The position numbers and the translations under genes were made by a program. The notes beneath the pieces are model-generated. The model saw only the letters and a list, made by a program, of their open reading frames with translations, made no database searches and had not been told where the DNA came from. From the IMG/VR virus record IMGVR_UViG_3300042397_001265, positions 1 to 47,291 of that record: a stretch of 47,291 bases of DNA; one strand, 5' to 3'. The DNA comes from a virus. Below, piece after piece: positions 1,341-5,416 of the stretch (positions within the stretch are counted from its first letter, which is position 1; the number at the start of each line of letters is the position of its first letter).

Positions 1341-2450
1341 ATGAAAAATTTATCAAAAGAAGAATTATTAAGTAGGCTTGAGGCAATTAATAGAAGCAAT
1401 GCTATTATTTACTTTGATCTTAGTGGTATTATCTTAGGGGTAAATGACATTTTTTTAGATGCAATGGGGTATGGTCAAGGTAATCATGATGAACTTATTG
1501 GTAAACACCACAGTACTTTTGTATGTGATGAGTATGCAAGATCACTTGAATATGAAAAATTCTGGGATATATTAAGAAGTGGTAAGTATTATCAAGGAGA
1601 ATTTGAGAGAAGAAGAAAGGATGGAAGTCTTATCAATCTTCAGGCAACTTATAATCCTATTTTTGATGACAGTGGTAAAATTACTAAAATAATGAAAATT
1701 GCTACTGATATTAGTGCTATTGTTAGTAGTAAAAAACAAATAGATGCAATCAACAGAAGTACAGCTCTTATTAGTTTTAACATTGATGGATTTATAACAG
1801 ATGCAAATCCTATATTTTTAGAAACAATGGGATACAGATCCAATGAAAAAGACAAAGTCATTGGAAAACATCACAGCACTTTTGTAAGCTATGAATATTC
1901 AAAGTCAGATGAGTATACTAAATTTTGGGAAAATTTAAGAAAAGGTAAGTTCTTTGATGGAATATTTGAAAGAAGAAAAGTAGATGGTTCTACTATTTAT
2001 TTACAAGCAACATATAATCCTGTGCTTGATAGTAAAGGTAATATTACTGATGTAGTTAAAATTGCAACTGACGTTACCGAATCTGTAAATAGTAAGAAGA
2101 AAATAGATGAGCTTACAGAAAATTTGACAGTTGAATTAAAAAACTCTCAAAAACTAAAAGACTCTATCGAGAAAGAGAAAGATGCTGCTTTGAATGACTT
2201 AGATGTAATAATAAAAAAAGGTCAAAGTGAGTTAATAAAAGTAATTGTTAAATGTGCTTTGGCAGTTATAATAGGTGTTGGAATTGTAACCACTCTATTA
2301 TATTGGGCAGCCATTATAACAAATAAAGAAACTCAGATAATTGGTTCAACTTGGAGTAATATGTTTAGTGTATTGTTAACTAATGCATTTTCAATAGTTG
2401 GCACAATTATGGGAATTAAATATGCCACACAAGAAGGTAGTAATAAATAA
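1341..2450 (+). CDS. Tandem PAS-domain protein with C-terminal two-helix (holin-like) membrane hairpin
   Basis: 369 residues, starting 3 bases after the previous stop. Two PAS domains cover about 13-126 and 134-246. They are clearly duplicates: each has an NRSxAxIxF start, GKHHSTFV (His56-His57 and His177-His178), KFW, FERR, DGSxIxLQATYNP and a KIATDxT end. This is the PAS type found in BdlA-like and chemoreceptor sensors, where such domains can bind haem or flavin. A coiled coil follows (about 247-295), then two hydrophobic helices (about 300-327 and 338-362) joined by a short polar loop, with a short charged tail. There is no kinase, GGDEF or methyl-accepting domain, so the only visible output is the membrane hairpin. 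It lies directly upstream of a holin and an endolysin, suggesting a sensory holin or antiholin (inference). Confidence 0.75.
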   Translation: MKNLSKEELLSRLEAINRSNAIIYFDLSGIILGVNDIFLDAMGYGQGNHDELIGKHHSTFVCDEYARSLEYEKFWDILRSGKYYQGEFERRRKDGSLINLQATYNPIFDDSGKITKIMKIATDISAIVSSKKQIDAINRSTALISFNIDGFITDANPIFLETMGYRSNEKDKVIGKHHSTFVSYEYSKSDEYTKFWENLRKGKFFDGIFERRKVDGSTIYLQATYNPVLDSKGNITDVVKIATDVTESVNSKKKIDELTENLTVELKNSQKLKDSIEKEKDAALNDLDVIIKKGQSELIKVIVKCALAVIIGVGIVTTLLYWAAIITNKETQIIGSTWSNMFSVLLTNAFSIVGTIMGIKYATQEGSNK

Positions 2451-2457
2451 AATAATT

Positions 2458-2703
2458 ATGAAATTTTTTAAAGAATTAGTAAGTGATGATAATGACATAA
2501 ACGAAAAATCATTCGTTGGTGTTATTTCTTTTTTCATGATGGTACTTGCATTTTTTGTAGACATAGTTACAGGGATATGGGGTGTCAAGTTAGTAGTTGA
2601 AGAATTTATTTTCAATGGTTTTTTAATGCTAACATCAGTAGCTTTTGGTATAGCTACAGCAGGAAGAATATTTAATAAAAACAAAAAACAAGAAAATGAG
2701 TAA
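2458..2703 (+). CDS. Putative holin, two transmembrane segments
   Basis: 81 residues from the ATG at 2458. The frame is open further upstream from a TTG at 2398, but that would sit deep inside the PAS gene, so the ATG seven bases after that gene's stop is preferred. A polar N-terminus is followed by two hydrophobic helices (about 19-41 and 48-70) and a lysine-rich tail, the usual class II holin layout. Its stop overlaps the start of the GH19 endolysin by 8 bases. Size, topology, charged tail and coupling to the lysozyme all support a pore-forming role that releases the endolysin. The sequence itself shows no named holin motif. Confidence 0.7.
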   Translation: MKFFKELVSDDNDINEKSFVGVISFFMMVLAFFVDIVTGIWGVKLVVEEFIFNGFLMLTSVAFGIATAGRIFNKNKKQENE

Positions 2704-3310
2704 GATTTTAGAATTCCAATCTGCCAATGGATTAACAGCTGATGGTATTTTAGGTAAAGCAAGTTTTGCTAAAATGAAAGAATTGTGGAAAGTTACAGAT
2801 GAACAACTTGCACATATATTAGGACAATGTCATCATGAATCTGCAGGATTTAAAGCTGATATAGAAAATTTAAATTATGGTGCAAAAGGGTTATTAGGCA
2901 TCTTCAAAAAATACTTTCCAACAGAAGCGTTAGCTAAAGCATATGAAAGACAACCTGAAAAGATTGCTAACAGAGTTTATTCTTCAAGAATGGGTAATGG
3001 TGATGAGAAGTCAGGTGATGGTTGGAAATTCAGAGGAAGAGGTGCTTTACAATTAACTGGTAAAGATAACTACAAAGCATTCACAACATTTATTAAAGAA
3101 GATTGTATAGCTAATCCTGATCTTGTTAAAAACAAATACTTTTTTGAAAGTGCTTTATTCTTTTTTAATAAGAATGGATTATTACCATTAGCTACAACTG
3201 TTACAACTGATTCTATTACAAAAATTAGTAAACGTGTAAATGGTGGTACTCATGGATTAGAAGATAGAATTGTACAAACAAATAAATTCTATAAACAAAT
3301 AAAAGGATAA
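2696..3310 (+). CDS. GH19 (chitinase-type) endolysin with a short peptidoglycan-binding N-terminus
   Basis: 204 residues. Residues 1-30 (FQSANGLTADGILGKASFAKM) look like one PG-binding_1 repeat. The catalytic part shows GQCHHESAGF with the presumed acid Glu48, the ENLNY element (Glu57), and the GH19 signature around 112-126 (FRGRGALQLTGKDNY). These are classic marks of GH19 phage endolysins, which cut the beta-1,4 bond between peptidoglycan sugars. No signal peptide is seen, so release through a holin is expected and a holin gene overlaps its start. The length is normal for a compact phage GH19 enzyme. Confidence 0.9.
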   Translation: MSKILEFQSANGLTADGILGKASFAKMKELWKVTDEQLAHILGQCHHESAGFKADIENLNYGAKGLLGIFKKYFPTEALAKAYERQPEKIANRVYSSRMGNGDEKSGDGWKFRGRGALQLTGKDNYKAFTTFIKEDCIANPDLVKNKYFFESALFFFNKNGLLPLATTVTTDSITKISKRVNGGTHGLEDRIVQTNKFYKQIKG

Positions 3311-5191: not shown

Positions 5192-5416
5192 TTGCACATA
5201 TTAGTAGGTGCTGTATTAGGATGGTTGTTATTTAAAACTTATTCAGGAATACCAATTCCTATACAAATATTTTACACATCATTTATAATTGGTGTTATAG
5301 GTACAATGTGGGAATGGGGATGGCAAATGTACAATGGTAGTGAGATTGACGAATGGGATGTTGTTAGAGCTGTAGCAGCTGGATTAGCAGTAAATATTTT
5401 TTTATTAATTGTATAA
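5192..5416 (+). CDS. Small polytopic membrane protein, non-ATG start
   Basis: 74 residues if the TTG at 5192 is used. The frame stays open back to 5147 and contains no ATG; ATT at 5162 would give an N-terminus reading MIKKEQIRNG, which looks natural and would overlap the upstream stop. Three hydrophobic segments are visible (about 3-16, 25-44 and 58-74), with a conserved-looking EWGWQMYNGSEIDEWDVVRA loop rich in acidic and Trp residues. A WEW...DxxD loop between helices recalls VanZ-like or small phage membrane proteins, but no function can be assigned. It sits at the end of the fibre chain. Confidence 0.5.
   Translation: MHILVGAVLGWLLFKTYSGIPIPIQIFYTSFIIGVIGTMWEWGWQMYNGSEIDEWDVVRAVAAGLAVNIFLLIV

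Follow-up and report, generated by a model that had tools for sequence, protein, structure and literature searches.

A phage PAS-hairpin protein encoded among lysis genes, a candidate redox-responsive regulator of lysis timing

Escherichia coli Aer consists of an FAD-binding PAS domain, a membrane hairpin, a HAMP part and an MCPsignal domain, and the class II holins and antiholins are small proteins with two membrane helices and both ends inside. In the chemoreceptors AerC and BdlA, two N-terminal PAS_FAD2 domains of the GKHH...FW type, carrying the Trp and His of the FAD signature, are followed by MCPsignal (PMC10468136, PMC13401364); the two such domains of AerC bind FAD weakly (PMC13401364), and both PAS domains of BdlA have been assigned to FAD (PMC8694187). 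Among the FAD-binding PAS domains (clusters 4, 9 and 14), the F-alpha Trp is the primary determinant of FAD binding, the second residue is either His (clusters 9 and 14) or Asn (clusters 4 and 14), and the Trp-plus-His pattern is placed with the FAD-binding AerC (PMC10468136). The tandem PAS domains of MmoS (3ewk) and PAS1 of NifL (2gj3) also bind FAD, and these proteins feed a kinase or a regulator. As to signal-adjusted timing of lysis, a superinfection signal is transmitted via an antiholin in the lysis inhibition of T4 (RI/T) and of vibriophage, for which the available text of the two sources describes no cofactor-type sensor domain (PMC11413866, PMC7182436).

Here we describe a phage-encoded protein in which tandem PAS domains of the AerC/BdlA type are followed by a membrane hairpin in place of MCPsignal, and which, unlike these chemoreceptors, is encoded in lysis cassettes and includes single-PAS members. 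It shares with Aer the FAD-type PAS domain, similar by sequence, and the membrane hairpin, but carries no HAMP or signalling domain past the hairpin and has no chemotaxis context; it has neither the kinase nor the regulator served by MmoS and NifL, which gave the best sequence and fold matches of its sensor half. Like class II holins it is encoded in a lysis cassette, and two membrane helices in an N-in/C-in topology are predicted for it, but about 300 residues of sensor stand ahead of its near-invariant hairpin. With lysis inhibition, the proposal made here shares the adjustment of lysis timing by a signal. In the open-licence literature, outside which most subscription papers and most preprints lie, we found no paper dealing with PAS domains in the lysis cassettes of phages, and no described phage protein in which a redox or oxygen sensor is coupled to lysis. 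We propose, with a probability of roughly 0.55, that the protein is an accessory, redox-responsive regulator of lysis timing that acts via its hairpin.

The stretch analysed (hereafter the window) is an entire IMG/VR virus record of 47,291 bases. The source virus is a contractile-tailed phage, for which a tail sheath, a UvsX-like recombinase, a DnaB-like helicase, a ribonucleotide reductase small subunit and a family B DNA polymerase were recognisable. Using a simple ORF method, we identified the following same-strand row of five genes between 371 and 3310:

371-658, + strand: 95-aa protein with one membrane helix and a possible coiled coil (ORF; no family match)
708-1337, + strand: 209-aa protein with an N-terminal membrane helix (ORF; no family match)
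1341-2450, + strand: 369-aa PAS-PAS-helix-membrane hairpin protein (ORF starting with ATG, Pfam, structure model, 148 homologues)
2458-2703, + strand: holA, 81-aa two-helix holin candidate (relatives near the PAS gene; no family match)
2696-3310, + strand: GH19 endolysin with a peptidoglycan-binding N-terminus (Pfam GH19, 4.6e-6; PHROG 181 endolysin, 3.9e-58)

From 708 onward these genes almost abut or overlap: the PAS gene starts 3 bases past the end of the upstream gene (1337) and ends 7 bases ahead of the holA ATG (2458), and holA overlaps the GH19 gene by 8 bases, so that the coordinates agree with the gene order described in an earlier reading of the sequence alone (hereafter the sequence-only reading), a PAS gene 7 bases 5' of a two-helix holin candidate that overlaps a GH19 gene. 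Judging from its position and layout, the 209-aa product is possibly a spanin-type partner. A further small hydrophobic protein of 74 aa, with a TTG start, several likely membrane helices and no NCBIfam match, is encoded at 5192-5416.

Within the PAS protein the following parts were assigned:

1398-1709, + strand: PAS domain 1, residues 20-123 (Pfam, AlphaFold2, alignment)
1509-1511 and 1563-1565: codons of His57 and F-alpha Trp75, the FAD signature of PAS domain 1 (criterion of PMC10468136)
1761-2072, + strand: PAS domain 2, residues 141-244 (Pfam, AlphaFold2, alignment)
1872-1874 and 1926-1928: codons of His178 and Trp196, the FAD signature of PAS domain 2
2076-2231, + strand: coupling helix, probably a coiled coil, residues 246-297 (model, family linker length)
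2232-2321, + strand: predicted membrane helix 1, residues 298-327 (hydropathy, model)
2325-2429, + strand: turn and predicted membrane helix 2, residues 329-363 (hydropathy, conservation)

Pfam recognised PAS_3 (5.7e-26) and PAS_9 (5.8e-23) and, above the cut-off, no kinase, cyclase, MCP or other output domain and no HAMP part. The AlphaFold2 model (65 sequences; mean pLDDT 77) consists of two PAS domains at 20-123 and 141-244, a single helix of residues 246-327, a turn and a helix of residues 332-363; since the pTM is 0.37, the arrangement of the domains is uncertain. In the hydropathy profile the first membrane segment (about 298-327) is strong and the second (about 339-360) weaker, helix 2 being only weakly hydrophobic. 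Pfam, model and hydropathy thus concur with the sequence-only reading in giving two PAS domains, a long helix and two predicted membrane helices without an output domain; the GKHHSTF motif that it had noted is present in both PAS domains, and in the predicted structure of the full protein no soluble domain encloses the C-terminal helices. Lysines stand on either side of the hairpin, so that an N-in, C-in topology is expected. Along helix 2, Ser or Thr occupies positions 339, 343, 347, 351 and 355 and Gly positions 354 and 358, and the hydrophobic moment is modestly above that of shuffles (p = 0.04). No match to any holin family was obtained with the protein, and no sequence similarity to any solved chain with the hairpin. 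A role in defence was considered and rejected, the protein matching 0 families in PADLOC.

A single scan of IMG/VR with the full protein yielded 243 relatives and a scan with the C-terminal 87 residues yielded 551; these were later supplemented by a clade at about 68% identity and by many members with a single PAS domain. The resulting set comprises 162 distinct loci and 148 distinct complete proteins; the loci are mutually related, so the counts given below are not independent, and the IMG/VR records may be fragments. On sequence grounds the PAS-hairpin protein is a member of a large unnamed phage family, and its layout is not due to chance, since 148 distinct complete homologues keep it. Each of the 20 virus records searched whole has one copy. 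PAS domains were fused to the hairpin in all 144 copies fetched, none being a free-standing hairpin. A pattern search of GTDB gave no hairpin relatives, and the six weak partial matches found in 395 Bacteroidota genomes (best E 9.8e-4) were taken as noise.

The PAS protein matched three records among annotated phages. One of them, MT836939.1 (L148), is labelled a human-faecal phage and was rejected as an apparent bacterial contig, as its PAS-PAS-MCP gene lies beside GGDEF/EAL genes; the other two, OR848229.1 (L149) and OR848218.1 of 'Listeria phage LM 4-14-1', are unverified wastewater records with a weak PAS match and may likewise be bacterial contigs. In Roseobacter phage CRP-901, a 'methyl-accepting' gene that neighbours a chitinase was excluded from the family by its size (about 121 aa). 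Two further observations concern PAS-like folds in phages. Gp108 of Cellulophaga phage phi19:1 (L191:4203-4925; also in phi10:1, Nekkels_1 and Nekkels_2) is a 240-aa hypothetical protein encoded a few genes 5' of a lysozyme, with a membrane helix, a coiled coil and then probably a PAS-like fold (structure search, BFVD R9ZZL0), in the reverse order of the window protein and in cultured phages. The BFVD fold search also gave, for uncultured Caudovirales phage (A0A6J5PRT3 / A0A6J5L941), a 218-aa phage protein with 52% identity across 120 columns and a phage 'histidine kinase' of 528 aa whose tandem-PAS fold is similar.

Nearly all of the closest PAS sequences from cells, 38-50% identical in the best segment, belong to chemoreceptors, and MCPsignal, absent from the PAS-hairpin protein, is present in 31 of 36 such relatives. 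This kinship, together with the FAD PAS domain and hairpin of E. coli Aer, would fit an Aer-like receptor, truncated and anchored via its hairpin, that interferes with the chemoreceptor or energy-taxis arrays of the host. We consider this the least probable of the explanations weighed here, because the protein has no MCP or HAMP part left with which to join an array, invariance over 30 residues would be superfluous in an anchor, the placement beside lysis genes would be left unexplained, and many Bacteroidota, the suggested hosts (see below), have no such arrays.

The Trp and His of the FAD signature are fully conserved. The F-alpha Trp (FW..L) is present in 236 of 236 PAS domains and aligns with the Trp of Aer, NifL and MmoS; the second His of GKHH is equally invariant (236/236) and aligns with the His of GQPH in Aer and of GQDH in MmoS; and the Asn position is nearly always Glu, as expected for the Trp-plus-His type. 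By sequence, the nearest solved structures were those of MmoS, Aer, NifL and LOV domains; every solved sequence relative with E <= 0.001 is a flavoprotein, and MmoS was also the best fold match of the sensor half. Haem was reportedly found in the related BdlA by Petrova and Sauer in 2012 (as cited in PMC10468136), and the conserved GKHH motif would supply histidines, so that the timing of lysis might instead respond to oxygen or nitric oxide via haem, or to a small ligand. That version appears very unlikely, given the assignment of both BdlA domains to FAD (PMC8694187), the association of the Trp-plus-His pattern with AerC (PMC10468136) and the flavoprotein nature of the solved relatives. From the FAD signature and the assignments of AerC and BdlA, we infer that the phage PAS domains would bind FAD and respond to a redox or energy signal, haem being the lesser possibility. 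The redox or oxygen cue put forward in the sequence-only reading, which had named haem and flavin alike, is therefore plausible, as both PAS domains carry the FAD signature, with flavin now favoured over haem.

The number of PAS domains varies (one in 60 and two in 88 of the 148 proteins), and at least four changes between the one- and two-PAS states fall on well-supported branches of a tree of 110 C-terminal residues. Yet all 148 proteins, whether they have one PAS domain or two, place the STW of the turn 89 residues past the end of the last of these domains; in seven of them a variant of the end motif stands at the same place. By analogy with chemoreceptors and kinases, such a fixed linker would be required by a helix that passes on a rotation or a change of register. 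The structure model of the single-PAS form (pLDDT 54) was of too low confidence for use. In the turn and helix 2, an alignment of 61 sequences has 33 of 35 positions invariant, although synonymous codons differ in 44% of sequence pairs, so that selection acts on the protein, as clear purifying selection. Because some of the searches had used helix 2 peptides, the search was repeated with PAS peptides only; the 30-residue string IIGSTWSNMFSVLLTNAFSIVGTIMGIKYA was retained in 67 of 67 complete hits, and an artefact of searching with the segment's own peptide was thereby rejected.

For analysis of the gene neighbourhood, neighbours were clustered blind to annotation and identified afterwards. In the 162 loci the clusters include holA-like genes (98), GH19 with other peptidoglycan-binding enzymes in one cluster (82), M15 peptidase (61), GH24 lysozyme (19) and two groups of Phage_holin_4_1 (26 and 15). 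Among the 119 distinct loci with three genes known on either side, an endolysin- or holin-type gene lies at most three genes off in 114, an enzyme in 106 and a holin-type gene in 91. Position +1 is taken by an enzyme in 49% of loci and position -1 by a holin in 35%, and the frequency of lysis genes drops to about 1% at a distance of four to five genes. About 40 arrangements were found, with GH19, M15, GH24 and other peptidoglycan-binding enzymes, so that the association is not one inherited block. A homologue check set in advance, whether the gene recurs beside lysis genes in unrelated phages, thus came out in favour of the sequence-only reading (114/119 loci). Another small membrane protein or holin candidate is near in 75 of 85 cassettes. 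In the remaining five of the 119 loci the PAS gene lies away from lysis genes; two of these five records have a holA relative about 16-18 kb off, in one of them adjoining an M15 gene.

Late operons can also carry unrelated accessory genes, which counts against the lysis-timing reading. Alternatively, the protein could act late in infection on a conserved host membrane component, for instance the proton motive force or the machinery for respiration or transport; its place near lysis genes would then reflect co-expression with them, and timing would not be its task. A conserved host partner would agree with a near-invariant helix in phages whose holins differ, and a few phages have the gene at a distance from lysis genes; the close and recurrent placement, in about 40 arrangements and with the fall to about 1%, exceeds what a general late location would give, and we regard this explanation as decidedly unlikely.

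Comparison of related genomes suggests that the gene is an accessory one that can outlast its neighbours. Identity to the window copy is 68-92% for the PAS protein, 16-59% for holA and mostly 40-64% for GH19, and of 20 PAS-bearing records, which may be fragments, seven match the DnaB and six the tail sheath of the window. One record of 272,437 bases (G001, behind locus L012) belongs to a close relative of the window phage, with DnaB 92% and sheath 86% identical, and comparison with it points to the window as a small portion of a far larger genome. Its PAS gene (87%) stands immediately 5' of a different GH19 gene (48%), and holA was undetectable anywhere in the 272-kb record; relative to the window phage, its lysis cassette has been replaced. 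The cultured Flavobacterium phage vB_FspM_immuto, which was absent among the annotated phages matched by the PAS protein, has holA, GH19 and a Phage_holin_4-like gene adjacent (gp78-gp80). In one PAS-bearing locus (L015) the holA, GH19 and holin products are 75%, 81% and 79% identical to those of immuto and collinear, and the PAS gene is located exactly between holA and GH19; this gene is therefore optional for lysis and has been gained or lost as a unit. The same comparison suggests that the hosts are Bacteroidota, probably Flavobacterium-like.

The holA-like genes, mostly at -1 or +1 of the PAS gene and directly 5' of GH19 in immuto, form a recurring unnamed family of two-helix holin candidates (alignment A8), whose scanned members matched nothing in Pfam, PHROG or NCBIfam. 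A second unnamed family (alignment A7; L052:7121-7435, L004:3137-3454), of about 105 aa with several hydrophobic helices and ending in SYYFGTK, repeatedly adjoins the PAS gene or the endolysin. Between the hairpin and holA no sequence relation was established, nor was one between the hairpin and another recurring membrane family (probability 8%). An antiholin, whose hairpin pairs with holA and keeps it inactive until the PAS state changes, had been offered in the sequence-only reading and would be in keeping with the presence of holA-like genes in 98 of 162 loci, with the other small membrane proteins in 75 of 85 cassettes and with the two-protein holin/antiholin control that is common in phages. 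The proposed pairing was weakened by the results: holA is variable (36% mean column identity in A8) whereas the hairpin is nearly invariant, no sequence relation between the two was established, holA is often absent beside the gene, being replaced in some loci by Phage_holin_4-type genes, and G001 has kept the PAS gene without a detectable holA. A dedicated holA antiholin is thus unlikely, since holA varies or can be absent while the hairpin does not vary, and the invariance of the helix is better explained by a self-acting hairpin or by a conserved host target. Between a hairpin that acts by itself, as a sensor-gated second holin or trigger, and a dedicated antiholin of holA, we favour the former.

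In the proposed regulation of lysis timing, the PAS domains would bind FAD and register whether the host is in one redox or energy state or another, the redox state of the flavin would alter the PAS dimer, and the length-locked coupling helix would relay this state into the hairpin. Helix 2, rich in Ser, Thr, Gly and Asn, might then self-associate in the inner membrane or be freed from such self-association, and this change would advance or delay the holin-endolysin step. In its furthest form, the proposal would make the protein a sensory holin, in which flavin PAS domains gate a membrane-disrupting hairpin directly, so that a large group of environmental phages would have metabolic control of lysis in one polypeptide; we put this forward tentatively. 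The other holin candidate in 75 of 85 cassettes and the immuto cassette without the PAS gene speak against a role as sole holin.

Many uncultured phages may thus time the bursting of the host by sensing its energy state, and this is directly testable because a cultured Flavobacterium phage has the cassette without the PAS gene. If true, hundreds of environmental phages would tune burst timing to host respiration, which would bear on phage ecology in oxygen gradients and yield a modular sensor-to-membrane switch. A sensory holin, if it is one, would represent a new class both of lysis protein and of environmental sensing by phages.
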